Source of the DNA: Cytophagaceae bacterium ABcell3 | GTDB lineage: Bacteria; Bacteroidota; Bacteroidia; Cytophagales; Cytophagaceae | Assembly (NCBI GenBank): GCA_030913385.1 | Contig: CP133159.1 | Location: 2,316,584 to 2,380,583 of the forward strand | Length of the DNA: 64,000 nucleotides | Reading direction: 5' to 3' | Shown: positions 47,625 through 61,940 of the stretch, piece by piece | How positions within the stretch are numbered: the first letter of the stretch is position 1 | How the letters are laid out: every line of letters starts with the position of its first letter | Program-made: the position numbers and the translations under genes | Notes under the pieces: generated by a model | Told to the model about the DNA's origin: nothing | The model's database searches: none | The model's input: only the letters and a program-made list of their open reading frames with translations

Positions 47625-48413
47625 CTACTTTTTTACCTTCATCTCTGCTTCTTTCTTCCAATCCATGCCAATGGCTGATAGATATTCAGACTCATTCCAA
47701 TGGTCTCGTGAAACAGGTTTACAGATAAGCGTTTCATCTAAGGGGGCGCTTACTACTTCCATTCCGCAACTTCTGATGATCGCTTCCATTGCAGAAGGAT
47801 TTGGAGCCCACCAATTTGTAGGGTCACCGGCATATTTTTTCTCAATAAATGCCATCTTTGGCCACTCATCTTTTAGAAAGACTTCTCTCTTTTCTAGCGA
47901 CACATCATCTGGTACATGTTCTTGCTTTTCGCCAGGCATAGATAGGGTTTGGAAAACTAACATTTCCTTTACCTTTCTAGAAAGAATGTCCATAGCCAAT
48001 AATGGGTACCGAAGGTGGTAAAACACACCCATAAACCAAATTAGGTCAAAATCTTCGTTAAGGTTTACCAGGTCATAAACTTGCATTTGCTTAAACCTGA
48101 TTTTGTTGGGTAGCCTAAACTGCTCTGCGACCCATTCTGCTTGTCGTAAATAGTGTGGGTCGAGATCTATTCCAAGTACATCAGCGCCGCGTTTTGCCAA
48201 CTCTATGGAATAGAATCCTGCATTGCAGCCTATGTCCAACACTTTCCACCCATTGAGATCGGCAGGAATATGGTCTTTTAAGGCCTGCCATTTGAAAGAT
48301 GGGAAATCTCCGAGAAAATGATCAGGAGCCGTTTGTACTCCACTAGGCAAATGGATGTTGTGGAACCATGGCTGCATTGATTGTATCTGGTCGGTGATAT
48401 CCTTTTCTTTCAT
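47625..48413 (-). CDS. SAM methyltransferase, TIGR04290-like
   Basis: A 262-residue methyltransferase. A SAM-binding glycine motif (LDIGCNAGFYSIELAKRGA with LGIDLD) is followed by the distinctive C-terminal region LVFQTLSMPGEKQ, WPKMAFIEKKYAGDPTNWWA and PSAMEAIIRSCGMEV, which I recognise as the signature of NCBI family TIGR04290, usually found beside glycosyltransferases and sugar-modifying genes. It may methylate a sugar or lipid-linked sugar. It is the last gene of the operon, 74 bp after the preceding stop. Confidence 0.83.
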   Translation of the reverse strand: MKEKDITDQIQSMQPWFHNIHLPSGVQTAPDHFLGDFPSFKWQALKDHIPADLNGWKVLDIGCNAGFYSIELAKRGADVLGIDLDPHYLRQAEWVAEQFRLPNKIRFKQMQVYDLVNLNEDFDLIWFMGVFYHLRYPLLAMDILSRKVKEMLVFQTLSMPGEKQEHVPDDVSLEKREVFLKDEWPKMAFIEKKYAGDPTNWWAPNPSAMEAIIRSCGMEVVSAPLDETLICKPVSRDHWNESEYLSAIGMDWKKEAEMKVKK

Positions 48414-48487
48414 GTAATAAAAAGTTTTATGTAAATAGTATATACCTCTTGTTTATGATGTTTATGTAATTATTGCTTATTTTATCT

Positions 48488-49564
48488 TTACACATTAATG
48501 CCTATATCGGTCAGCTCTCTCACGTATTCTTCAAGTTCTGCTGCTCTGTGTGCAGCGGTATGGTTTTCCATTACTACTTTTCGTGCATTCTCACCGATAC
48601 TCCTTCGCTGACTGTCTGGTATTTCCTGAAGGAAAGAAGTGGTATCGCTAGTTTTTCTGGCTATCAAAATAGATTCTTCTTCTTTAAACAAAGTTGTTAA
48701 ACCATCCCAATCGTCGCTGATAACGGGTGTTCCACAAGCTGCAGCCTCAAAGAGTCTAACGCTAGGAGAGTACCCTGCACGTATCATATCTGCTCTAGTA
48801 ATGTTCATTGTAAATCGTTGGCTATTATAAAAACAGCTGTGGTCAGCCGGGGGGAGGTGGTGGATATGCTCTGTGTTTTTTGGCCAGCGTAGGTTGTCTG
48901 GATATTGGGCTCCTGCTACAACAAATCTTTGTTCAGGCAGTACTGTGGCTGCTTTTAACATCAGGTTATTTAAAGGTGGCTGCCTGTCTGTGCTATAGGT
49001 TCCCAGGTAACCTAGGTCCCATTTCTTTTCACAAGATACTGGATGGTATAGGTTTGGGTCAAAAGAGCAGTAAAGAGCTTTGGCTTTAGGCGAATTATAT
49101 TTTTTTTCTAGCAGGTCTAATGTTGGGCCTCCTGTAAAAGAAAGGTAGAGGTCGTAAGCTGGAATGAGTTCTGGCTTTAGGTACTCATAATCTTTTCTTT
49201 CAAGTTTTGCTAAAGTTACCGGGGTATCAATATCGTAGAAAGCAGCAATCCCTCGGGTAGTGTTTTGTACCCACTCACCAACTTTAACTCCTTGCGGGAC
49301 ATAGGAACCGACTATAACAAGATCGGCATTTTTGATTGTCGTGTGCCACCGGTCTTTTAGTTCTTCCAAACTTTTATAAAGGTGCAAGTCGCAAAAGTCT
49401 GGGTTGGGCAGGTCCCTGCTTGAGGCATACCAAGGGACATCTCTTTCTAAAAAAGTAACATGGTGGTTCTTTTTAGTAAGTTCTTTTATTAGCCCTCTGA
49501 AAGTAGTGGCATGTCCGTTGCCCCACGAAGAGGTGAGCGATAAACCTAATATGACGATTTTCAT
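48488..49564 (-). CDS. CgeB-like glycosyltransferase, third copy
   Basis: A 358-residue GT-B-type enzyme. Its start MKIVILGLSLTSSWGNGHATTFRGL is close to the openings of the two genes before it. The C-terminal group-1 donor-binding region reads RADMIRAGYSPSVRLFEAAACGTPVISDDWDGL, with the acidic residue of the EX7E-like motif replaced by the FEAA run usual in CgeB-like proteins. The donor is presumably a nucleotide sugar. The three consecutive copies differ from each other, so they probably add different sugars or make different linkages. 3 bp from the next gene. Confidence 0.83.
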   Translation of the reverse strand: MKIVILGLSLTSSWGNGHATTFRGLIKELTKKNHHVTFLERDVPWYASSRDLPNPDFCDLHLYKSLEELKDRWHTTIKNADLVIVGSYVPQGVKVGEWVQNTTRGIAAFYDIDTPVTLAKLERKDYEYLKPELIPAYDLYLSFTGGPTLDLLEKKYNSPKAKALYCSFDPNLYHPVSCEKKWDLGYLGTYSTDRQPPLNNLMLKAATVLPEQRFVVAGAQYPDNLRWPKNTEHIHHLPPADHSCFYNSQRFTMNITRADMIRAGYSPSVRLFEAAACGTPVISDDWDGLTTLFKEEESILIARKTSDTTSFLQEIPDSQRRSIGENARKVVMENHTAAHRAAELEEYVRELTDIGINV

Positions 49565-49567
49565 TTG

Positions 49568-50662
49568 TTAGACTTCTACGTTTTGGTCAATGTTTTCTTG
49601 TAATACCGGGTGCAATTCTTCTGCTCTTTTTGGATAGGTATGGGCAGAAATGACTTTCTTTCTGGCTGCTTCGCCAATTTTGGCAGCTGTATTTGGCGAA
49701 AGGTCTTTAAGTAGAGCAGCTACTTCTTCGCCATTATTGGCCACGAGTATTTCTTTGCCTGGTTCAAAGAAGAACTCTATACCTTCCCATTGATCACTGA
49801 TTATGCATGCACCGGCTCCGGCTGCTTCAAAAACCCGGGTAGCGGGGGAAAAGCCATACCTGGCCATACTGTCTCTGCTAATGTTCAAGACTGCTTTGGA
49901 TGTACTGTTGAATGCATTGTGGTCTTTGGTATATACATGCCCAATGTTTTTAATATTGGATGGCATAGGTTTGTCGTGCCATCCGCTTCCGCCTATGATG
50001 AATTCTTTATGTGGGCACAGACAGGCTGCTTTGATAAAAAACTCTTCTACACGGCTTTCCCGGTCTGGTAAGCGGTTTCCTAAGAAAGCCAGATCTGCTT
50101 GGAATCTTTCATCTGACTTTACTGGAAAGTGCGTGTTTGTGTCTAAAGCATTATATACCGCTATGCATTTTTTTGCCCCGTGCGAAGTATATGCTTTAAT
50201 TACAGGCTCTCCTCCGCCATAGGTCAACACCATGTCATATTGAGGAATGTGTTCATGAAATGGATCTTTAGGATCTTTTTCGATTCTGTCTAAAGTGGCA
50301 GGAGCATCTACATCCCAAAAGATAATTTTGTTTTTACTGGTCTTCAGCTTAAGAACTTCTGCTTCCAAAAGTTCGTCAAATACACCCACTCCACTGGCTT
50401 TTATTACAATATCTGCCGAAGAAGCTTTTTGCAGCATGTCAAATACAGCTTTTTCGGTGGCTTTGTAAACCACTACTTTTGAATATTCAGGGTCTGGTAT
50501 GTCCCTGTGCTCTTGGCGTTGGTAAGCGTCTGGCTCAAAAAAAGTAATGTCGTAGCCTAGATTGTGCAGCGCCCTAAGTATGCCCCTATAATAAGTAGCG
50601 GCACCATTCCAATATGCTGAAATAAGGCTAGAGCCAAAAAATGCAATGCTTTTATTGTTCAT
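49568..50662 (-). CDS. CgeB-like glycosyltransferase, second copy
   Basis: A 364-residue paralogue (SLISAYWNGAATYYRGILRAL near the N-terminus, RYGFSPATRVFEAAGAGACIISDQWEG in the C-terminal domain). Cytoplasmic, no membrane segment. Substrates unknown; it belongs to the same operon, 3 bp from the neighbour downstream and 7 bp from the one upstream. The high similarity of layout to its neighbour points to duplication followed by divergence. Confidence 0.82.
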   Translation of the reverse strand: MNNKSIAFFGSSLISAYWNGAATYYRGILRALHNLGYDITFFEPDAYQRQEHRDIPDPEYSKVVVYKATEKAVFDMLQKASSADIVIKASGVGVFDELLEAEVLKLKTSKNKIIFWDVDAPATLDRIEKDPKDPFHEHIPQYDMVLTYGGGEPVIKAYTSHGAKKCIAVYNALDTNTHFPVKSDERFQADLAFLGNRLPDRESRVEEFFIKAACLCPHKEFIIGGSGWHDKPMPSNIKNIGHVYTKDHNAFNSTSKAVLNISRDSMARYGFSPATRVFEAAGAGACIISDQWEGIEFFFEPGKEILVANNGEEVAALLKDLSPNTAAKIGEAARKKVISAHTYPKRAEELHPVLQENIDQNVEV

Positions 50663-50669
50663 TGAGCAA

Positions 50670-51779
50670 TTATTTATTTAATGTTTCAAACACGTTTAAT
50701 CCGATTTCTTCACAAATTGCTTCTAGCTCATCCACTCTATGCTTACAGGTATGTGCTTTTTGAATGGTTTCAAGGCCATTTTGTGCAATATTGTTTCGGG
50801 CTTCCTTATTCTGAATGAGATGTTGAAGTTGGTTTTTCATTTCCGCTCCATCTTTCACCATTAGGTAATCTTGGTTGGTTCTGAATAGGTGTTCTGTGTC
50901 TTCCCAAGGGGAGGAGATAAGCGGTATGCCACAAGCTAAAGCCTCAAAAGGCCTGATGGTAGGAATGCCTGGCAAGGTTTCTACATAAGGCCTTCTTGGT
51001 ACATGTACGGTTACTTTATATTTAGAAAACGCTTCTGGCGCTTTATAGTTGGGAAGCCATCCGCCATATTCAATTCCGGCATTTTCTAATGCCTCAATGG
51101 CTTTTTTAGGATAGCGTACGCCGTATATTTTTGCTTTTAATTTTAGTGACTTGACAGGGTTTATCAAAAACTCATGAAGTTCTTCTGTTCTTTCTTCATC
51201 GCCCCAGTTTCCTACCCATACTAGATCGCCTTCAAAGTTTTTCTCTAAAGGGCGGAATATGTTTGTGTCTGCTGCTTCGTGCCATGTCCATGATTTATTT
51301 ACTTTATGCTCTTGTTCATAAATCTTTCTGATAACCTCTCCGTAAGCCAACACGCCATCATATTGGCTTAAATCATAAGCGGCCATTGCTTCTTTATCAG
51401 AGATTATCCGGTGGTGAGTATCATGAAAAAGGAGTTTATAACCTAATCGGCTTTTTTCCTTCCCTAACCGTGAAACCACTTTTTGTTCGTTCCACTCATG
51501 TACAATGACCAGGTCTGCATCTTTTAGGGCTTGTTCATAATTGAAATTATCATGGTTGTAGAAATTGGTTTCTAGTTGAGGGTAATACTTATAGAATTCC
51601 TCAACGGCCTTGTTCCCATAGTCTTTTTTTAGGTTGCTAAGACTCCATCCATTTTCAGGCTCAAAAACTTGTACATTATGACCTCGGTTAATCAACTCGG
51701 TAGCTATACCTCTTAAAAAATGGGCATTGCCATGGTTCCAGTCTGATAGTAATGAATGGTAAAAAAGTAATATCTTCAT
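50670..51779 (-). CDS. CgeB-like glycosyltransferase, first copy
   Basis: A 369-residue group-1 glycosyltransferase with the openings FYHSLLSDWNHGNAHFLRG and a donor-binding region VPRRPYVETLPGIPTIRPFEALACGIPLISSPWEDTEHLF. Its start overlaps the stop of the GT4 gene by 4 bp (translational coupling). Chemistry unknown; retaining mechanism would be expected of the family. Confidence 0.83.
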   Translation of the reverse strand: MKILLFYHSLLSDWNHGNAHFLRGIATELINRGHNVQVFEPENGWSLSNLKKDYGNKAVEEFYKYYPQLETNFYNHDNFNYEQALKDADLVIVHEWNEQKVVSRLGKEKSRLGYKLLFHDTHHRIISDKEAMAAYDLSQYDGVLAYGEVIRKIYEQEHKVNKSWTWHEAADTNIFRPLEKNFEGDLVWVGNWGDEERTEELHEFLINPVKSLKLKAKIYGVRYPKKAIEALENAGIEYGGWLPNYKAPEAFSKYKVTVHVPRRPYVETLPGIPTIRPFEALACGIPLISSPWEDTEHLFRTNQDYLMVKDGAEMKNQLQHLIQNKEARNNIAQNGLETIQKAHTCKHRVDELEAICEEIGLNVFETLNK

Positions 51780-52915
51780 AATTCAGTAACTTTTTCTGTT
51801 TTTGCAATCCTGCTTTTAGCAGGTTTTCTAGGAAACAATAGCTTTTGGTATTCTCTAAAGTAGTTTTCAGCCATCTGTCGGGAGTCATATCTTCTGCTAT
51901 GCATTTCAGCCCGATTGGCTAAACTGGTTCTTAAACTGTCGTTTTCAATAAGCATGATAAGACATTCTTTTAAGCCTTGTTGGTCATCGTTATTGATAAA
52001 AACAGCATTGTTTTCCCATATTTCAGCCAGAGAATCGATTTGTCCAGCTACAAGGGCACATCCGGACATGCCTGCTTCTAGCATAGCCAGTCCAAAAGGT
52101 TCATAGCGAGATGGCATTACAAAAATGGAAGCTTCCGATAACCACTTGGTAATCTCTTTTTTGCTTAATTTTCCTAGAAAAACAACATTTCTGAGGTTTG
52201 TCAATTCGCCATTTGAGGGGTCTTGGTTGTCTCCGGCAATATATACAGGCCAAGGAAGTTCGGCTGCTATTTCTGCTAATAGGTTTAAGTTTTTAGCTTC
52301 GTCCCAAACCCTGCCCATTGCAAAAATGATAGGTTTCTTGCTTTTCTTTCTGAATGTGCCGATGTCGGAACCATTGTATATGACTTTAGAGTTTTTAAAA
52401 GGGCCATAGTACTCTTTGGCACAATGCATCATATTTTGAGAAGGAGCTATTACCAGATCAGCAGCTTGTAAGCCTTCAGATACTTTTTGCTGGTATGTGG
52501 ACCATTCAGTAGGAGCGTCTTCATTTTTTACAGCCTGCCACCATGATAGTACACATGAATGGGCTGCAACTAAAACTGGTTTGCCCCAAGGAAGCGAACC
52601 ATGTACATAATTATTCAGATGAATAAGATCTGGTTTGATGGATTTGTTTAGCTCGAGGAGCCAAGCGCCCGCTTTCTCTACATCTTCCCATGGGTTCTCC
52701 ATCCATTCCAATTTATAGCTGCTTTCATGGACAGTGATATTTTTTGTATATCTGACATCATATTGTTGTTCGGGAGAAAGTGGCGCTCCCATTGTTGCCA
52801 AATGTACATGTATATTGTATGGTGCCAGAACCTTTGCCAGCTCAGTCGCATATGTCCAGACTCCACCAATGGTGTCGGCTGTCATTAATATTTTTATTTT
52901 GTTATTATCTGCCAT
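51776..52915 (-). CDS. GT4-family glycosyltransferase
   Basis: A 379-residue GT-B glycosyltransferase. The N-terminal domain begins KILMTADTIGGVWTYATELAKVL; the C-terminal domain has FAMGRVWDEAKNLNLLAEIAAEL and the EX7E motif in FVMPSRYEPFGLAMLEAGMSGCALV, where both Glu are present. Members transfer hexoses or other sugars with retention. The length and motif order are typical. It overlaps both neighbours (4 bp and 11 bp), so it is in the core of the operon. Confidence 0.88.
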   Translation of the reverse strand: MADNNKIKILMTADTIGGVWTYATELAKVLAPYNIHVHLATMGAPLSPEQQYDVRYTKNITVHESSYKLEWMENPWEDVEKAGAWLLELNKSIKPDLIHLNNYVHGSLPWGKPVLVAAHSCVLSWWQAVKNEDAPTEWSTYQQKVSEGLQAADLVIAPSQNMMHCAKEYYGPFKNSKVIYNGSDIGTFRKKSKKPIIFAMGRVWDEAKNLNLLAEIAAELPWPVYIAGDNQDPSNGELTNLRNVVFLGKLSKKEITKWLSEASIFVMPSRYEPFGLAMLEAGMSGCALVAGQIDSLAEIWENNAVFINNDDQQGLKECLIMLIENDSLRTSLANRAEMHSRRYDSRQMAENYFREYQKLLFPRKPAKSRIAKTEKVTEL

Positions 52916-53936
52916 ATATCATGTCCAGGATTTCTGAAACTTTTACATACTGCCATGCGTCTTTGTCAAATTCTGCACCAGCGGCTAATTCCTCGGCCCA
53001 AACCGCAGCGGCACGCCCCATCCAATCGTCTGGTGGTTCTACCATTACTTCTGTTTTGGTGCCATAGTAAGCTTCTGCTACAAAGTCATAGAAAGAGCCG
53101 TTGATGTTTCTAAAGCATGCGCCTCCTTTGGTACCATAAAAAACGGCTTTAATTTCAGCCTCTTTTCCTGCTTGCAAATTCCATGAACAGCGTAAATCAA
53201 TAGCGGCATCATTGGCTAGGTCAATTCTGGCAATGCCATAATCTTCCACTACTTTTGCGTCTTTTGGTAATGGTTTGCCTTGGTGGAAAAGTTTGGAGCT
53301 GACGTTTTTCACTTCCGGAAAGTCCAGGCACCACATAGCCAGATCGGTCAGGTGGACGCCCAAGTCAATGACGCAACCGCCACCTGATTGCTCTGGATCA
53401 TAAAACCATGGTTTATCAGGGCCATAGGCATTGTGAAATACCAGTTCTACCGCATATATTTCTCCAAGGTTGCCTGACTTAATGAGGTTATACACTGCTC
53501 GCATAGCCTTGGTGTGGCGGTAGGAGAGGTCTACTCCCAATGAAAGGTTATATTTTTCGGCTGTTCTGACTACTTCGGCAGTTTCTTGAGCAGTCCTTCC
53601 GAGGGGCTTTTGGCAAAAAACAGATTTACCGGCATTTAATGCCTGAATCGATTGGTTGGCGTGTAATGCACTTGGTGTAGCAATAACAACACCGTCAACT
53701 TCTTCATTTTTTAATATGGCATCAAAAGAGGAAGCTTGTTTAGCCTGAGGAGCTGCTTTTAAGGCTTCTTTGGTGGTTTCTTCTGAGACATCTGCCACCA
53801 TAGATATGGTAGCTTTTTCGGTTTTTTGGACAGCCTCCATTCTGTTTCGCCCGATCCAACCTACTCCTAAAAATCCCAGTGATGGTTTAAAAGTTCTTTC
53901 AGATTTTTCTGATTGCTTAAAAATTAACTCTTCCAT
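52905..53936 (-). CDS. Gfo/Idh/MocA-family oxidoreductase
   Basis: A 343-residue NAD(P)-dependent dehydrogenase. The Rossmann motif is GVGWIGRN and the catalytic Lys lies in CQKPLGR, where the usual CEKP is CQKP (Glu to Gln, Lys kept). The second domain holds GGGCVIDLGVHLTDLAMW, with the His expected in the active site. Family members oxidise or reduce C3 of nucleotide or free sugars, or isomerise inositols. It is probably a sugar-modifying step of this operon. A 11-bp overlap joins it to the GT4 gene. Confidence 0.87.
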   Translation of the reverse strand: MEELIFKQSEKSERTFKPSLGFLGVGWIGRNRMEAVQKTEKATISMVADVSEETTKEALKAAPQAKQASSFDAILKNEEVDGVVIATPSALHANQSIQALNAGKSVFCQKPLGRTAQETAEVVRTAEKYNLSLGVDLSYRHTKAMRAVYNLIKSGNLGEIYAVELVFHNAYGPDKPWFYDPEQSGGGCVIDLGVHLTDLAMWCLDFPEVKNVSSKLFHQGKPLPKDAKVVEDYGIARIDLANDAAIDLRCSWNLQAGKEAEIKAVFYGTKGGACFRNINGSFYDFVAEAYYGTKTEVMVEPPDDWMGRAAAVWAEELAAGAEFDKDAWQYVKVSEILDMIYGR

Positions 53937-54035
53937 AGTAATAAAATGTTAATCCCAAAGTGAACCTGACGTCTTGGCGACGACCTGCTCAACTCTTGGT
54001 GAAAAAATAAACTAAATTATGGCCCTTCAAGCCGG

Positions 54036-55040
54036 TTATATTTTTATAAGCGCCTTTACAAAACCTTCTGGACGTGAAGCCATGGTTCTAAAAGCATCAT
54101 TAATTTCATCTAAACTATAAGTATGGGTATAAAGTGAGGCCGGCGAAAGCTCTGAATCAGTCACAGCCTTCAATGCGTTTCTAATCCCTTTCATATACAT
54201 TTTAGGATCTCTTTCGTGGGCATTGATAACATCTAATCCACGCCAGTTCCAAAGTTGGATGTTTACAGAGCGCATTCCGTCCTGATGAAAGCCTGCTATG
54301 ATTAAGCGGCCCCTTTCCATGGTTAACTCACCAGCCAAGTTTAATGGCCACTCCTTTCCGGTGGCTTCTATTACCCGGTCACAGAATTTACCGTCTGTTA
54401 GGTGTTTTACTTTTTCAATGATTTTCCAATGGTCGTCAAGCGGTATAAGCTCGTCGGCGCCGTTTTTATCGGCCACTTCTAAAGAAAATGGTCGCTGGGA
54501 TAGGGCAATGACGTTAGCGCCTGCATTTTTACAAAGCTGGGTTAGCAGTGCCCCTAAAAAGCCTATGCCAATGATGGCAACAGTTTGCCCTTTGCGGATA
54601 TCGCTTCGTTCAAAGATGTTCATGGCACAGCCTAACGGCTCTCCCGGAAATGGCTGCCCATAAAGCGATGGTGGCAGTTTTACCAATGCATCGGCATCTG
54701 CTATGTCGTATTGGGCAAAAGAATGGTAAGACAAAAAAGACACCCTTTCGCCAGGAGCGTATCCTTTTACATCTTTTCCTACCTCATCTACTGTGCCCCA
54801 GCCTTCATGGCCAGGATTGCCTGCCGGAATAGGGTACTGAAACCATTCACGACCTTCCCATAAAGGGATGCCTGAAGCACAAACACCACACCCTTCTACT
54901 TTTACCCTTACCTGATTGGCTTTTGGTTCAGGAATATTGACTTTCTGGATTTCAAATTTCCCAGGTTCTGTCAATACCGCAGCGTCCATTAGCTGAACAT
55001 CGGTTTTTTGATTTTCTAATGTTTCACTGGAACGTATCAA
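54036..55040 (-). CDS. zinc-type medium-chain dehydrogenase (MDR)
   Basis: A 334-residue MDR oxidoreductase with catalytic-zinc ligands in GCGVCASGI (Cys) and PGHEGWG (His, Glu). The loop with four Cys that binds the structural zinc in classic alcohol dehydrogenases is missing, a common variation. The cofactor motif GIGFLGALLTQLC begins the Rossmann fold. Family members oxidise polyols or sugars; the exact substrate here is open. It overlaps the GH-SDR fusion gene by 17 bp and is separated by 99 bp from the Gfo/Idh/MocA gene. Confidence 0.87.
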   Translation of the reverse strand: MIRSSETLENQKTDVQLMDAAVLTEPGKFEIQKVNIPEPKANQVRVKVEGCGVCASGIPLWEGREWFQYPIPAGNPGHEGWGTVDEVGKDVKGYAPGERVSFLSYHSFAQYDIADADALVKLPPSLYGQPFPGEPLGCAMNIFERSDIRKGQTVAIIGIGFLGALLTQLCKNAGANVIALSQRPFSLEVADKNGADELIPLDDHWKIIEKVKHLTDGKFCDRVIEATGKEWPLNLAGELTMERGRLIIAGFHQDGMRSVNIQLWNWRGLDVINAHERDPKMYMKGIRNALKAVTDSELSPASLYTHTYSLDEINDAFRTMASRPEGFVKALIKI

Positions 55041-57069
55041 TAGTAGCCTCCTTTTTTATGTTTTTAAATGAACTTAGTTCAATTCCTTTTTGCTTGCACA
55101 CCCATACAAGGAGGTTGTGCAAACCTTTGTTGATGCTGTTTTCAGGCCGCCAGCCTGTTGCTTCCGAAAATTTTCTTATGTCTGAAACATAGTAAAGCTG
55201 ATCTCCTGTTCTGGCTGGAGCAAACTCCACCTTTGGTGTTTCTCCTGTAAGTTTGCCTATTGAGTGTATTAGCTCGACAAGACTTGTGGTGTTTTCTATT
55301 CCTCCACCTATATTGTAGGCTTGTCCTGAGAGCTTCTCTATGTTTCTACTGGCCAATTCAAAAGCTTTTATCAGGTCTTGGACAAAAAGTACGTCACGTA
55401 CTTGTTTGCCATTGCCATAGATCGATATTGTTTCTTTCTCTAGTGCCTTGATTAAAAAGTGGGCTACCCAGCCTTGGTCTTCGTTTCCGTATTGATGAGG
55501 GCCGTATACGCAGCTCATTCTGAATACAGTGGCTGGTATTCCATATGTTCTGGCATAGTCTAAAACATACTGATCTGCCGCTCCTTTGGAACAGCCATAG
55601 GGGCTGTGGAAGTCCAGTGGTCTGTTTTCTGCAATTCCGGTATTGCACAAGTCAGTACTCTGAGGCATATACCTGTGATCTTTTTCAACAAATTGGATAT
55701 CCTTTAAAGAACCATATACTTTGTTGGTTGATGTAAAAATCAGTGGTATAGGAGCAGCTGTCGTCCTGATAGCTTCCAATATGTTCAATGTTCCCCGGGC
55801 ATTAATTTCAAAATCATTTACCGGGTTGTATAAAGAAGTTGTTACAGCCACTTGAGCCGCAAAATGGTATATCTCACTGGCATGGTTTACCAGCTTTTTG
55901 ACCACATGTTGGTTTCTGATATCACCGGTTTCAATTTCTATGTTTACGCCATATTGATCATACAGCCACTTAAGGTTTTTCTCTACTCCTGGTCTCGACA
56001 CATTGTCTAAAATCATGACTTTTTGGCCATTTTCCACCAAGCTCTTTGCTAAATTGGTACCTATAAATCCAGCACCGCCACAGATTAATGCATATTTTTC
56101 TTTGTCATTTTGTGATGCTTTTTTTAGGTATGGCATTTTCTCCTTTAGCCCAATTCCCTTTTGCTCAATCATCCTGTAAAGGAGTTTCGGAGTGCCATCA
56201 CATTTCTTTAGCCCAAAGTGATACTCCCGCTCGTCCAAATGCATGCCACCGACTGTAGGGTGTTTCGGGTCTAGGTCATACGCAGCATACCAGTAAAGCC
56301 TGTCCGCCGGAGCTTTTTGGGCTTTTTTAAACTCTTCTAGTTGCTTTAATTCGTCATGTTGCCAAGTGGAGAAACCTGCTTCTGTAATCCATATTTCTGC
56401 TTTGTGGCCATGATGGTTTAACGTTTCCCTGATAGCGTTAATATTCTTTTCCCAACCATCCCAGTGTTGGTCAAATACTTCGGGAAAACCATGAATGCCT
56501 ACAGCGTCTATATGTTCCATCGCCCCTTGCGAGAACATGTTATGCAGCCAATTGGGGTCAATGGGACTCATGCCGCCTAGTAAGGTTTTTCTACCTCTTT
56601 GCTTCATCCAATAGGCGGCCATATTGATCATTTGAGAAAACCTTTTCCAATTCAGGTCAAGGGTGTAGTCGTATTCTACCTTATTGTTCGGTTCGTTCCA
56701 AAGTTCCACCCATTCAAAATGTTGGTCATATCGGGTAATAATTATGTCCAGAAAGTCTGCATATGACTTAGGTTCTTTGGGCGGCGCTGAAACTTTGGGA
56801 GCCAAACCTATAGATGGTGGTGTGTAAAGGAAGCACGGAAGTACCTCCAGATTCTTCGATAAAAAAGGGATTAGCCAGTCATACCATTCTTTACCACCTT
56901 CTGTATACCAATCAGCCCATGAAAAACCTGTTCTCAGGTGTTCTATGCCAAGCCTTTTGCAGTCCTCTACCAGTTTTTCCACACGCTCATGTTCGCCTGG
57001 CCTCAACCATTCCAACAGGCCTGTTATATGAACATTGCTATTGTTATATATTTTGTTGTCTGAAAACAT
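55024..57069 (-). CDS. fusion of a glycoside-hydrolase-like domain and an SDR nucleotide-sugar epimerase
   Basis: A 681-residue protein with two domains. Residues about 10-305 form a TIM-barrel glycoside hydrolase of clan-A type: VELWNEPN carries the acid/base (E126) and IWITEAGFS the nucleophile (E230), so both catalytic Glu are present. Residues about 325-665 form an extended SDR enzyme: GGAGFIGTNL (331-340) binds NAD, and SPYGCSK holds the Tyr-Lys pair; the nearest look is CDP-tyvelose/UDP-glucose 4-epimerase. No signal peptide, so the hydrolase domain would work in the cytoplasm, which is unusual for such enzymes. A sequencing frameshift is excluded as cause, since a single continuous frame with a short linker spans both. 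Confidence 0.88.
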   Translation of the reverse strand: MFSDNKIYNNSNVHITGLLEWLRPGEHERVEKLVEDCKRLGIEHLRTGFSWADWYTEGGKEWYDWLIPFLSKNLEVLPCFLYTPPSIGLAPKVSAPPKEPKSYADFLDIIITRYDQHFEWVELWNEPNNKVEYDYTLDLNWKRFSQMINMAAYWMKQRGRKTLLGGMSPIDPNWLHNMFSQGAMEHIDAVGIHGFPEVFDQHWDGWEKNINAIRETLNHHGHKAEIWITEAGFSTWQHDELKQLEEFKKAQKAPADRLYWYAAYDLDPKHPTVGGMHLDEREYHFGLKKCDGTPKLLYRMIEQKGIGLKEKMPYLKKASQNDKEKYALICGGAGFIGTNLAKSLVENGQKVMILDNVSRPGVEKNLKWLYDQYGVNIEIETGDIRNQHVVKKLVNHASEIYHFAAQVAVTTSLYNPVNDFEINARGTLNILEAIRTTAAPIPLIFTSTNKVYGSLKDIQFVEKDHRYMPQSTDLCNTGIAENRPLDFHSPYGCSKGAADQYVLDYARTYGIPATVFRMSCVYGPHQYGNEDQGWVAHFLIKALEKETISIYGNGKQVRDVLFVQDLIKAFELASRNIEKLSGQAYNIGGGIENTTSLVELIHSIGKLTGETPKVEFAPARTGDQLYYVSDIRKFSEATGWRPENSINKGLHNLLVWVCKQKGIELSSFKNIKKEATIDTFQ

Positions 57070-57106
57070 TGCTTTATCTGTTTCGTTAACTAATCACACC
57101 GAAGCT

Positions 57107-58225
57107 TTACACGGTCAGTCCTCTGGTCTCTAGCTCTTTGCTTGCCTTGCTGACATGGTCAGAGGCGCTTTGGTCTTGCAGCCATTCGGCAAGCTCTGTG
57201 AGCCCTTCTTCAAAACTGATCTCTGGGACAAACCCTAAAATCTCACGTGATTTGGTCATGTCGGAAAAGCAGTGCCTGATATCACCTACCCGATATTTTC
57301 CGGTCACCTTTGGTAAAATATGGTGGTTCCCTGTTACACCAGCCAAGCAGGTAGCTATTTCATTGATGGTATATTTGTTTCCACTACCTACATTAAAGAC
57401 TTCTCCGGTGGCTTTTTCTTTTTCTAGCGCTAACCTGCAAGCTTTGGCTACATCTTTTACATTGATAAAGTCTCTTTGTTGAAGGCCATCTTCAAAAACC
57501 ATTGGTTGGTTGTTGTTCAAAAGTTGTGAGGCAAAGATGGCCAATACGCCCGTGTATGGGTTTGAAAGCGCTTGCCTTGTGCCATAAACATTAAAAAATC
57601 GCATGGCTACCGTAGGGATATTATATGCTTGCCCAATCATCAAGCACATTTTTTCTTGGTCATATTTGGTCAATGCGTAAATAGAGGAAAGGCTCGGGTG
57701 TTTGTCCTCTGTTGTGGGCACAGGAATGAGCTCATGCCCATTTTGGTTGTATAGCTCCCAATTACTTTTTTTGAGGTCTTCCAACTTTCTTTCGCAGTGC
57801 ATGATCTTGTTGCCTTGCTTGTCTAGGTAAAGCCCTTCCCCGTAAATACTCATACTCGAAGCGACAACCAATTTTCGAACCGGCTTTTCTACCAATGCTT
57901 CAAGCAAGACGGAGGTGCCTGTGTTGTTGACGTCCACATAATCATTTACCTTATACATACTTTGCCCTACACCTACCAAAGCGGCAAAGTGATAGACTGC
58001 GTCTATTCCTTTAAGTGATTCTTTTACTATATCTTTGTCCCTTACATCTCCGACGATTAACTCTGCTTCTGGGTGCAGATAGTCTGGTCGTTTACAATTT
58101 TTCCCATGTACCTGTTCAGAAAGGTTATCAAGAACTCTTACCTTATACCCACATCTGATTAATTCATCTGTTAGATGGGAGCCGATAAATCCAGCCCCAC
58201 CTGTAATCAGAACTCTTTTTGCCAT
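57107..58225 (-). CDS. extended SDR nucleotide-sugar epimerase/dehydratase
   Basis: A 372-residue SDR enzyme of the type often called dTDP-L-rhamnose 4-epimerase. It has GGAGFIGSHL for NAD binding, an SSMSIYGEG segment, the catalytic pair in IYALTKYDQ (Tyr, Lys) and FFNVYGTRQALSNPYTG, a family hallmark. There is an insertion with Cys (IMHCERKLEDL) in the position seen in these epimerases. It likely produces a nucleotide sugar for the operon's glycosyltransferases. 37 bp precede the fusion gene. Confidence 0.87.
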   Translation of the reverse strand: MAKRVLITGGAGFIGSHLTDELIRCGYKVRVLDNLSEQVHGKNCKRPDYLHPEAELIVGDVRDKDIVKESLKGIDAVYHFAALVGVGQSMYKVNDYVDVNNTGTSVLLEALVEKPVRKLVVASSMSIYGEGLYLDKQGNKIMHCERKLEDLKKSNWELYNQNGHELIPVPTTEDKHPSLSSIYALTKYDQEKMCLMIGQAYNIPTVAMRFFNVYGTRQALSNPYTGVLAIFASQLLNNNQPMVFEDGLQQRDFINVKDVAKACRLALEKEKATGEVFNVGSGNKYTINEIATCLAGVTGNHHILPKVTGKYRVGDIRHCFSDMTKSREILGFVPEISFEEGLTELAEWLQDQSASDHVSKASKELETRGLTV

Positions 58226-58256
58226 TGTTGTGTCTTTTATAAATCCTTGAAAATCT

Positions 58257-58946
58257 TTAAAAAGTTTGCAGCGTTGGGCGTAATGTTATATGGTTTACCG
58301 AAACTCCATGTGGCCGGCTAATTGCATAATAAACCGTGTTGGCCACTTCTTCTGGCGATATTGCCCCCCAGCCATTTTCATCAACCTCCCGACTGCCTGA
58401 AATTGTATTTTTAAAAAAGTTGGTCTCTGTTACGCCAGGGGCGACTGTTGTCACCCTTATACCTGGTTCTTCTACCCGTAATGTTTCAGCAATAGTCTCC
58501 AGCGCACATTTCGTAGCAGAGTAAATACCGCCGTAAGGGTATGTTTTGCCCGCCGATACAGACGAAATAAATACCACATCGCATTTCATGTTTTCAGGTA
58601 CTGATGGTACAAAAGCCCTGATCAGTCTGAGCGATCCCATTAAATTTGTATTGATTACTGTTGCCCATTTTTCAGGGTCTCCTTCGGTTAATTTTTCATG
58701 GATGCCTATGCCTGCGTTACAGACAATTATATCCGGTAGGCCAAAGGAGGTGTGAAGTTCACTGAAAAGCCTATCTACTTCACTCCCGGAGGCTATATTG
58801 CAAAGTGAAGAATATAATCCGGTGGGCAAGGGTTGTGGAAAGTTAATGTCTGCTATCGCAGTCTTAACTCCTTCACTGTTAAATTTGCTGGCTATTGCAT
58901 ATCCAATACCGGATGCGCCTCCGCTGACTAAAGCTCTTCTGTACAT
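58257..58946 (-). CDS. classical SDR oxidoreductase
   Basis: A 229-residue short-chain dehydrogenase: GGASGIGYAI near the N-terminus binds the dinucleotide, NAG follows, the Ser lies in FISSVSAG and the pair in YSATK. The start MYRRALVSGG is clean. It is the first gene of the ten-gene operon, 31 bp before the epimerase gene. Substrate unknown; a ketoreduction during sugar synthesis is possible, an unrelated role is too. Confidence 0.87.
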   Translation of the reverse strand: MYRRALVSGGASGIGYAIASKFNSEGVKTAIADINFPQPLPTGLYSSLCNIASGSEVDRLFSELHTSFGLPDIIVCNAGIGIHEKLTEGDPEKWATVINTNLMGSLRLIRAFVPSVPENMKCDVVFISSVSAGKTYPYGGIYSATKCALETIAETLRVEEPGIRVTTVAPGVTETNFFKNTISGSREVDENGWGAISPEEVANTVYYAISRPHGVSVNHITLRPTLQTF

Positions 58947-59237: not shown

Positions 59238-59780
59238 TTACTTGCCCAATTGAGCTAGTCCTACCGATATGGCGGCCACGGAACCTGAAACTTTTATTTC
59301 TCCTTTGCTTACCATCTCTTTTGCCGCTTCCGCAGTTACTTTAACTATTTGAAGGCATTCTGTTTCGTCCGGATGCTGTGCTGAAACTTTTTCTAATCCT
59401 GTAGCCAAAAATACATGAAGCGTGTTGGTGTCTTTTGTAGGATTGTCAAATAGGGTAAGGATTTTCTTGAAACTTCCATTGCCATAACCTGTTTCTTCTT
59501 GGAGCTCCCGTTTGGCAGCGGCCAAAGGGTCTTTTTCATCATCCTCCATAAATCCGCCAGGCAGCTCTATTAAAATTTCCCCCGCAGCATGTTTGTACTG
59601 GCGTACTAAAACGATCTCTCCTTCTTGGGTTATAGGTAGAATCAAAACAACGTCAGGTCTGTCATTTACATAGTAGTCGTCAACTAATAAGCCCTTTTCG
59701 GTTTCTACGGTATCTTTTCTTATCTTGCACCATTTGTTCCAAAGTAGCTTTTCCGAGGAAATCAGTTTCCATTTTTTCAT
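59238..59780 (-). CDS. Nudix hydrolase (ADP-ribose pyrophosphatase-like)
   Basis: A 180-residue hydrolase that cleaves nucleoside diphosphates linked to another moiety. The Nudix box reads GGFMEDDEKDPLAAAKRELQ followed by EETGYG, with one extra residue between the first Glu and REL compared with the standard spacing. QYKHAAGEILIELPGG is the ADP-ribose pyrophosphatase-like preceding strand. Single gene; the 291-bp space before the operon start contains no ORF. Confidence 0.88.
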   Translation of the reverse strand: MKKWKLISSEKLLWNKWCKIRKDTVETEKGLLVDDYYVNDRPDVVLILPITQEGEIVLVRQYKHAAGEILIELPGGFMEDDEKDPLAAAKRELQEETGYGNGSFKKILTLFDNPTKDTNTLHVFLATGLEKVSAQHPDETECLQIVKVTAEAAKEMVSKGEIKVSGSVAAISVGLAQLGK

Positions 59781-60908: not shown

Positions 60909-60911
60909 TTA
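60885..60911 (-). terminator. terminator of 60909-61940
   Basis: AAAAAAGGGG pairs with CCCCTTTTTT around a GAAGT loop, overlapping the stop codon. Works in both directions. Confidence 0.8.
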
Positions 60912-61940
60912 CCATCTTCTGTCAGCCTGGTGTAGGGATTGTTTTTCAGTTAAGTTTACTGGCTTACCTGTTTCAGCTGCTTTAAATATAGCTTCTATAA
61001 TGCCCATATCCTTAAGGCCTTCTTCAGCATCGGCTGTAATTTCAGTGTTGTTATAGATAGCATCGGCCATAGCATCAAGTTGAGCTTTTTGCTGATTGAT
61101 GTTTTCAATATTCAGTGGGCCATTACTGGTGCTACCTTTTAGGCCTTGGTATTCAAAGGCAGGAGATAGTTCAAACCAACCTTCTTCTGTTTCCGCATGA
61201 ACATAGTCAATATTTTTGGCAAAAGAAGCTTCACAAACCGCTTTTATCTCACCTGGAAATTCTATTTCAAACTTTATTTCCCCGTCGACCTCTTCAAACT
61301 TACCATCTTGACGTGTTATTTCCGCATAGTTGATATACAACGGCTCCATTCCGGTAATGTGTCTTGCTGCCTGAATACAGTAGATTCCAACATCCATGAG
61401 CGCACCACCGCCAAACATTTTTTTAAGCCTCCACTGTCCCGGAGATCCTGCTTCAAAGCCAAAACCGGCTTTAATATGTTTGATGTTGCCAAGTTCTTTT
61501 TCCTGTCCCAGTTTTATGATTTCCTGATTATGCGGTTCGAAATGTAAGCGGTAACCAATTAGTAGTCTAACACCTGCGTCTTCACAAGCCGATATCATTT
61601 GTTTGCACTCTAATGTATTTGATGCCATCGGTTTTTCACAGATGACGTGTTTGCCTGCTTGTGCCGCTCTAATAGTATATTCTGCATGCATAGAATTAGG
61701 CAAGACAATATATACTACCTCGATTTCCTTATTTTTTGAAATATTGTCAAATGTGCTGTAATCGTAAATGCTTTCGTCTTTCAGGTTGTATTTCTCTTTC
61801 CATTTTTTTGCTTTGTCTGGAGAGCCTGTAACAATGCCTGCCAGATAGAAGCTTTCGCTATGCTCTATTGCTTGAGCAAGTTGGTTGGTAGCATATTTCC
61901 CTAAACCCACCAGCGCAATTCCATACTTTCCGTTTTTCAT
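60909..61940 (-). CDS. Gfo/Idh/MocA-family oxidoreductase
   Basis: A second member of this family, with the standard CEKP motif intact (VICEKPMASN). GLGKYATNQ binds the dinucleotide, and GGGALMDVGIYCIQAARHI is the family core. It looks closer to glucose-fructose oxidoreductase-like proteins than to the operon enzyme at 52905-53936. It is encoded separately, with terminators nearby, so the two are unlikely to share one pathway. Substrate unknown. Confidence 0.87.
   Translation of the reverse strand: MKNGKYGIALVGLGKYATNQLAQAIEHSESFYLAGIVTGSPDKAKKWKEKYNLKDESIYDYSTFDNISKNKEIEVVYIVLPNSMHAEYTIRAAQAGKHVICEKPMASNTLECKQMISACEDAGVRLLIGYRLHFEPHNQEIIKLGQEKELGNIKHIKAGFGFEAGSPGQWRLKKMFGGGALMDVGIYCIQAARHITGMEPLYINYAEITRQDGKFEEVDGEIKFEIEFPGEIKAVCEASFAKNIDYVHAETEEGWFELSPAFEYQGLKGSTSNGPLNIENINQQKAQLDAMADAIYNNTEITADAEEGLKDMGIIEAIFKAAETGKPVNLTEKQSLHQADRRW

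Follow-up and report, generated by a model that had tools for sequence, protein, structure and literature searches.

What does a bacterium make with an uninterrupted run of ten genes for sugar-modifying and sugar-transferring enzymes, none of which encodes a flippase, polymerase, exporter or priming transferase? This question is posed by a minus-strand operon of Cytophagaceae bacterium ABcell3 (Bacteroidota; assembly GCA_030913385.1), situated in the 64,000-nucleotide stretch of contig CP133159.1 (positions 2,316,584 to 2,380,583) that was analysed here and is called the window below. In order, the operon encodes a short-chain dehydrogenase/reductase (SDR), an extended SDR, a protein in which a glycoside hydrolase (GH) domain is fused to a further SDR domain, a medium-chain dehydrogenase/reductase (MDR), a Gfo/Idh/MocA oxidoreductase (Gfo), a GT4 glycosyltransferase (GT), three CgeB-type GTs (CgC, CgB and CgA) and a methyltransferase of the TIGR04290 family (Table 1). 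We propose, tentatively and with close to even confidence, that this is a horizontally spread operon for one conserved, small, O-methylated oligosaccharide, whose assembly would take place in the cytoplasm and start from a soluble acceptor. A literature search returned no description of the cluster and no mention of TIGR04290 or of the presumed S. meliloti locus tags SMb20239-20243 and SMb20246, an absence that does not prove the cluster to be undescribed.

Conservation of the operon across phyla

All ten minus-strand open reading frames (ORFs) lie where a preliminary description made from the nucleotide sequence had placed them, and their family calls are backed by both Pfam and NCBIfam. Its reckoning of the joints as mostly overlapping or under 40 bp, with maximal gaps of 74 and 99 bp, likewise agrees with the coordinates: from the short SDR onward there are gaps of 31 and 37 bp, an overlap of 17, a gap of 99, overlaps of 11 and 4, and gaps of 7, 3 and 74 bp. 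The MDR gene has two candidate starts (TTG at 55040 or ATG at 54989). The operon has a G+C content of 42.2% vs 38.7% for the rest of the window; an Rfam search of the window gave no match, and promoter and terminator scans yielded nothing above the chance level.

Table 1. Features of the operon, its surroundings and related loci. Coordinates are window positions, except those with an L prefix, which refer to individual cluster loci.
Feature	Coordinates	Strand	Remarks
Short SDR, first gene	58257..58946	-	PF00106, E 3.8e-32
Extended SDR, GalE/LegB-like NDP-sugar 4-epimerase or dehydratase type	57107..58225	-	PF01370, 177 bits
Whole GH-SDR fusion gene	55024..57069	-	Fusion present in 24 of the 32 readable groups; identity 45-63%
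GH-A glycosidase domain, fusion residues 1-316	56122..57069	-	Model closest to PslG (GH39)
CDP-tyvelose-2-epimerase-like SDR domain, fusion residues 325-663	55081..56097	-	Sequence and fold match
Zinc-type MDR dehydrogenase	54036..55040	-	PF00107/PF08240
Gfo/Idh/MocA oxidoreductase	52905..53936	-	PF01408/PF22725
GT4 glycosyltransferase, BshA/MshA side of the family	51776..52915	-	BshA model 74.7 bits, below cut-off
CgC, CgeB-type glycosyltransferase	50670..51779	-	PF13524, 124.6 bits
CgB, CgeB-type glycosyltransferase	49568..50662	-	PF13524, 125.5 bits
CgA, CgeB-type glycosyltransferase	48488..49564	-	PF13524, 118.9 bits
TIGR04290 S-adenosylmethionine (SAM) methyltransferase, CmoB relative	47625..48413	-	341 bits, cut-off 300
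NUDIX hydrolase, 291 bp upstream of the operon	59238..59780	-	PF00293
Second Gfo/Idh/MocA gene, beyond the NUDIX gene	60909..61940	-	Outside the conserved cluster
Stand-alone permuted GH	L155:6819-7703	-	Partner module; sequence alignment
Other stand-alone permuted GHs	L117:5517-6446, L113:6483-7445, L077:15078-16052; also L142, L129		Partner modules
Polysaccharide pyruvyl transferase and FrhB/FdhB-like pair	L113:4095-6570, L142:15136-17605, L155:2812-5309		Sinorhizobium, g156 Cytophagales and Rufibacter-like genomes
TIGR04295 B12 radical-SAM protein	L117:11449-12741; also L125-L128, L132, L135, L150, L151		Alphaproteobacterial loci

A scan of genome contigs for the GH-SDR fusion recovered 48 loci, and mapping all ten genes revealed that their order is repeated in tens of other genomes; hence, the ten genes are not a chance assembly. 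Pontibacter, Hymenobacter, Adhaeribacter and Botryobacter share the whole order from the short SDR to the methyltransferase; the stretch mapped in the Rufibacter loci revealed no methyltransferase. Most of the order is also kept in Geotalea, Citrifermentans, Aurantimonas, a Rhodospirillaceae genome and metagenome-assembled genomes (MAGs) of Chitinophagales, Acidobacteria and Bdellovibrionales. In all, the operon is seen in Hymenobacteraceae and other Bacteroidota, Geobacteraceae, Acidobacteriota, Bdellovibrionota, Alphaproteobacteria and Xanthomonas, with plasmid records adding Rhizobium, Sinorhizobium, Paracoccus, Roseomonas, Azospirillum and Xanthomonas; in S. meliloti 1021 the cluster lies on pSymB (NC_003078), at about 242.4-253.3 kb. 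The preliminary description had taken the genes to be one operon for a glycan or glycoconjugate, a claim it left open to contradiction should the set not stay together elsewhere; the recurrence of the set across phyla supports one conserved biosynthetic unit.

The TIGR04290 family is sparsely distributed, being present in 24 of 390 genomes of the order and 13 of 337 from Alphaproteobacteria; in a phylum-wide sample of 198 genomes its cut-off is passed by ABcell3 alone. TIGR04290 is absent from all 18 further genomes that the order sample lists for the family of ABcell3, which makes a horizontal gain of the operon likely.

For comparison the clusters were sorted into 33 groups, 32 of them readable for the state of the fusion. 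The loci are mostly about 20 kb long, so that distant partner genes may escape, and many recurrent unlabelled ORF families, apparently shadow ORFs opposite the core genes, were set aside by eye. Over these groups the recurrent parts are the extended SDR (30 of 33), the SDR resembling CDP-tyvelose 2-epimerase (TyvE), the GT4 enzyme, three orthologous CgeB-type GTs, the TIGR04290 methyltransferase and the GH39-like glycosidase. Orthologues of the short SDR (47-61% identity) are restricted to Bacteroidota clusters, namely those of Hymenobacteraceae, g215 and the Chitinophagales MAG. The extended SDR scores about 154 bits with both TIGR01179 and TIGR04180, below either cut-off. No flippase, polymerase, exporter or priming transferase is found among the families present in at least three of the 33 groups. 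In keeping with the earlier observation that the operon is without Wzx, Wzy, an ABC exporter and a priming enzyme, none of these recurs beside its relatives, and the locus does not qualify as a standard capsule or O-antigen locus, as had been held.

The CgA, CgB and CgC proteins form three separate orthologue series across phyla at 50-73% identity, which argues for a fixed product. CgB is the most conserved GT, and both it and the GT core as a whole were present in each of the 12 cluster genomes checked, even where the methyltransferase is far away. Among the GTs, conservation is lowest in the GT4 enzyme, at 29-58% identity to its orthologues, and this difference from the CgeB-type enzymes suggests that the chain stays constant while its starting point varies. 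The methyltransferase aligns with positions 2-226 of the 226-residue TIGR04290 model at 341.3 bits, making it a member of that family, and matches CmoB (4p7c) with E 2e-14.

The glycosidase-epimerase fusion and its permuted counterpart

The preliminary description had correctly recognised the GH-SDR fusion while overlooking the TyvE-type identity of its SDR half. In sequence searches this half scores 302 and 280 bits against the TyvE structures 9rl0 and 1orr, with the next solved relative reaching 129 bits, and its structural model shows a Z of 40.9 to 1orr, the next being 34.0. Residues T448-N449-K450 and the Y491/K495 pair (Y-x3-K), which include the catalytic T-Y-K triad, are invariant in the 26 aligned sequences; the equivalent segment and pair matter in TaTyvE (PMC13098431). 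Sequence and modelled fold concur in placing the SDR half in the TyvE-like family of predicted nucleoside diphosphate (NDP)-sugar C2-epimerases. We do not claim specificity for CDP, because the VAM segment of TyvE is replaced by V-A-V (the M85 position is V in all 26 sequences) and, in the cytidine pocket (W207/W210/F211), the W210 position is H in all 26; W534 and F538 are retained. A CDP-sugar donor was dropped as unlikely to be required, as ABcell3 and 14 of 25 cluster genomes lack the CDP-glucose cytidylyltransferase. Given this frequent absence, and that TaTyvE accepts UDP-glucose besides CDP-glucose, albeit with slower turnover (PMC7851689), a UDP-sugar is the likelier substrate.

The N-terminal half (residues 1-316) matches no Pfam family at E 0.001, nor the GH39 sequence model. 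A fold search with the whole fusion was filled by SDR matches; the GH domain was therefore modelled and searched alone. The model (pLDDT 86) is a (beta/alpha)8 barrel of clan GH-A and comes closest to PslG, with a Z of 28.2 (next 24.9) and a root-mean-square deviation of 2.7-2.9 over 288-293 residues at 19% identity. The acid/base E126 (in WNEPN) is present in 25 of 26 sequences and the nucleophile E230 (in WITEAG) in 24 of 26. The barrel and its glutamates after strand 4 (NEP) and strand 7 support membership of clan GH-A; the name 'GH39-like' refers to the fold, as no GH39 sequence model matched. In Rufibacter hautae (L064:9941-11998) both glutamates are replaced, by G and A, and in Hymenobacter cavernae (L056:9959-12010) the second is A. 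Judging from these replacements, some members of the family may lose hydrolase activity.

In eight groups the epimerase comes without a fused GH domain. All eight have a stand-alone GH protein annotated as 'beta-xylosidase', as against only 4 of the 24 fused groups. In six genera the start of the stand-alone protein aligns with residues 118-301 of the fused GH domain and its end with residues 17-114, at 31-37% identity. On this alignment the stand-alone enzyme is best described as a natural circular permutant of the fused GH, the predicted cut lying just before strand 4 of the barrel. An initial notion, that it is the GH domain simply detached from the fusion, was discarded in view of the alignment and of the presence of both forms in some genomes. 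The permutation provides a natural example of a rearranged barrel, some genomes having both of the paralogues concerned. As the unfused groups all hold the permuted stand-alone form, every readable cluster has some such glycosidase.

Mutually exclusive enzymes, partner genes and the predicted product

While the preliminary description was right about the MDR and Gfo genes, it missed that they are exchanged elsewhere for a B12 radical-SAM protein of the TIGR04295 family. MDR and Gfo occur together in 21 of the 33 groups and TIGR04295 in nine, without overlap: the pair is found in none of the nine groups with TIGR04295 vs 21 of the 24 groups without it (Fisher 5.7e-6; 0.009 for Alphaproteobacteria only; this and the later Fisher value count related clusters and lineages as independent). 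The MDR orthologues, at 50-70% identity, are always missing where TIGR04295 is present, and no orthologue of MDR or Gfo is encoded anywhere in ten genomes with TIGR04295. On the CgB tree the label changes between the two states six times, at least four of the changes being forced by well-supported branches, with the sisters Roseomonas and Azospirillum having opposite states. The simplest reading is a repeated replacement at one step, most naturally the inversion of a hydroxyl, although that the reaction is shared is our inference: the two dehydrogenases could invert by oxidation and reduction, and the radical enzyme could do so alone. This exclusion gives TIGR04295 a concrete, testable function.

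A search of PDB places 6jw6 and DgpA, and lower down 6nor, nearest to Gfo among solved structures; we take 6jw6 to be KanD2 and 6nor to be GenD2, both aminoglycoside dehydrogenases. The position that GenD2 oxidises is C3'' of a pseudotrisaccharide already assembled (PMC4340712).

The preliminary description likewise overlooked that, in other genomes, the cluster is regularly accompanied by inositol-3-phosphate synthase and a phosphatase. In L124 an inositol-3-phosphate synthase, a histidine phosphatase, the methyltransferase and the stand-alone GH are packed into one compact unit that has no GTs, and the same four genes lie close together in L131 and L126, the phosphatase match being weaker in L131. 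Rufibacter-like genomes have a longer, unrelated type of inositol synthase near the cluster. Among 20 genomes, the synthase is present in all eight with the stand-alone GH vs one of 12 without it (Fisher 7e-5); because the short synthase type of Alphaproteobacteria escapes PF07994 at E 1e-40, PF01658 was searched too.

From the genes alone, with the family assignments, conservation, exclusivity and GH replacement as the observed part and the substrates and order of steps as the conjectural one, the following pathway can be drawn up. The extended and TyvE-like SDRs would act as C4 and C2 epimerases on an NDP-hexose, which is probably a UDP-sugar. The GT4 enzyme would place the first sugar on the acceptor, most likely inositol in lineages with inositol-3-phosphate synthase and the phosphatase; in ABcell3 the acceptor might be imported inositol or something else. 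CgC, CgB and CgA would then add one residue each. At one hydroxyl of the glycoside, MDR and Gfo would together carry out an oxidation followed by a reduction, a task presumably taken over elsewhere by the B12 radical-SAM protein, whereupon the TIGR04290 enzyme would O-methylate the product and the GH39-like domain would edit or release the glycan. A cytoplasmic product is favoured because no transporter, priming enzyme or polymerase recurs. It is possible, rather than probable, that such products constitute a new class of cytoplasmic oligosaccharide of about four sugars, O-methylated and in some lineages cyclitol-linked, spread over several phyla and made by a pathway with a GH-epimerase fusion, a permuted GH stand-in and two NAD-dependent dehydrogenases interchangeable with one B12 radical-SAM enzyme.

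Three observations weigh against the cytoplasmic oligosaccharide. First, some extended modules include pyruvyl transferase and FrhB-like genes, which are often members of surface polysaccharide loci. Second, the ABcell3 genome has neither inositol-3-phosphate synthase (PF07994 and PF01658) nor the stand-alone GH, so that the inositol part of the scheme is not transferable to ABcell3, whose operon represents a minimal version; inositol as a universal, obligate acceptor was rejected, as was its de novo supply in ABcell3. Third, GenD1 is a C-methylase in the gentamicin pathway (PMC4340712), and TIGR04295 could by analogy be a GenD1-like C-methylase, in which case the exclusivity would reflect two different products.

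The first of these observations, made in Sinorhizobium, Rufibacter-like and g156 genomes, invites the explanation that the enzymes build or decorate a surface or lipid-anchored glycan whose export genes are found at another place in the genome. A surface-polysaccharide locus is also where PslG belongs, the protein to which the GH domain comes closest among solved structures, and the CgeB-type GTs are named after a spore-surface gene. We nonetheless regard a surface glycan as rather unlikely, as transporters and enzymes of priming or polymerisation do not recur around the 33 groups, and convincing membrane segments are absent from all ten proteins: the maximum 19-residue hydropathy is 0.94-1.31, except for 1.69 in the MDR, which belongs to a soluble family. 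Of the two products that the preliminary description considered, the modified lipid head group finds no support, since no enzyme of lipid or phosphatidyl transfer recurs. Its soluble intracellular glycoconjugate fares better as a candidate, being partly supported by the conserved, non-capsule unit without a recurrent exporter that we see.

By analogy with galactosyl-pinitols, which play such a role in plant seeds, the product might alternatively be a glycosylated O-methyl-inositol acting as a compatible solute or desiccation protectant. The grouping of synthase, phosphatase, methyltransferase and permuted GH in L124, L131 and L126, the unrelated synthase of the Rufibacter-like genomes, and the matches of GT4, nearest to BshA but including MshA, which glycosylates inositol phosphate, are all in keeping with it, and several host genera are known from dry or irradiated soils. 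This proposal is rather unlikely given that about half or more of the cluster genomes, ABcell3 included, are without inositol-3-phosphate synthase. The EcfG motif (GGAAC-N15-18-CGTT), moreover, is scattered in the alphaproteobacterial clusters at a frequency modestly above chance, with one clear upstream site, in Paracoccus, and is not systematically upstream of them. General-stress control of these clusters was dropped on the same grounds, despite suggestive neighbours.

An aminoglycoside-like pseudo-oligosaccharide, serving as an antibiotic or a signal, could explain the Gfo relatives 6jw6 and 6nor and the cyclitol synthase near the cluster in some lineages; a comparable swap of dehydrogenase and radical-SAM enzyme is known from 2-deoxystreptamine synthesis, where BtrN contrasts with NAD-dependent enzymes. 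Such a secondary metabolite is improbable: there is no aminotransferase in the operon or recurrent in the 33 groups, no resistance gene or efflux pump recurs in them, and an antibiotic locus would not usually be so strongly conserved over free-living species. Least credible by far is a low-molecular-weight thiol cofactor of the mycothiol or bacillithiol kind, for although the BshA model is the top-scoring one for GT4 and the MshA model a further match, both scores fall far below their cut-offs (74.7 vs 273.7 and 43.9 vs 462.5 bits), the deacetylase and cysteine ligase are neither in the operon nor recurrent beside it, and three extra GTs would have no place.

A fixed set of about nine enzymes, in an order largely kept across several phyla and carried on Sinorhizobium and Rhizobium plasmids, points to a widespread small glycan that has so far been missed. 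The variants of the operon tell essential steps apart from those open to replacement by other enzymes, and the pSymB copy in the model strain S. meliloti 1021 offers a genetically tractable host in which to look for product and role.

Neighbouring genes and comparison with known systems

Next to their clusters, Pontibacter, Hymenobacter and Rufibacter-like genomes have orthologues of the NUDIX hydrolase gene (42-49% identity), which lie there 3' of the methyltransferase. The association is hence kept with a change of position between ABcell3 and Hymenobacteraceae, and the gene is associated with the cluster, perhaps without being co-transcribed. A protein of 582-586 residues without a Pfam match adjoins the cluster in Sinorhizobium (L113:9368-11116) and Roseomonas (L116:18277-20037), the two sharing 47% identity.

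Several known systems resemble parts of this operon. NCBIfam describes TIGR04290 and TIGR04295 as families of unknown function, naming no pathway or product; TIGR04295 (B12_rSAM_oligo) is part of many alphaproteobacterial versions and is absent in ABcell3, which has MDR and Gfo instead. The three CgeB-type GTs have the PF13524 domain in common with CgeB of the Bacillus spore crust, and differ in occurring as three conserved paralogues in one operon with no sporulation context. MshA and BshA share the GT4 family and, in some lineages, the inositol synthase partner, whereas the scores lie far below the cut-offs and the downstream thiol enzymes are missing. The gentamicin and kanamycin glycoside 3-dehydrogenases GenD2 and KanD2 (taken to be 6nor and 6jw6) and DgpA are among the nearest solved relatives of Gfo, which is here partnered by a zinc MDR in place of an aminotransferase. 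TyvE, as in Thermodesulfatator atlanticus (TaTyvE) and Salmonella (1orr), is the best match of the SDR half in both sequence and fold, with T-N-K and Y-x3-K present; here, the domain is instead joined to a GH39-like one, in an operon with no other CDP-3,6-dideoxyhexose gene. Similarly, the likeness to PslG and GH39 consists in the common barrel fold and the catalytic glutamates, while the GH domain of the fusion, unlike PslG, is apparently cytoplasmic, precedes an epimerase and has a circularly permuted paralogue in the partner modules.

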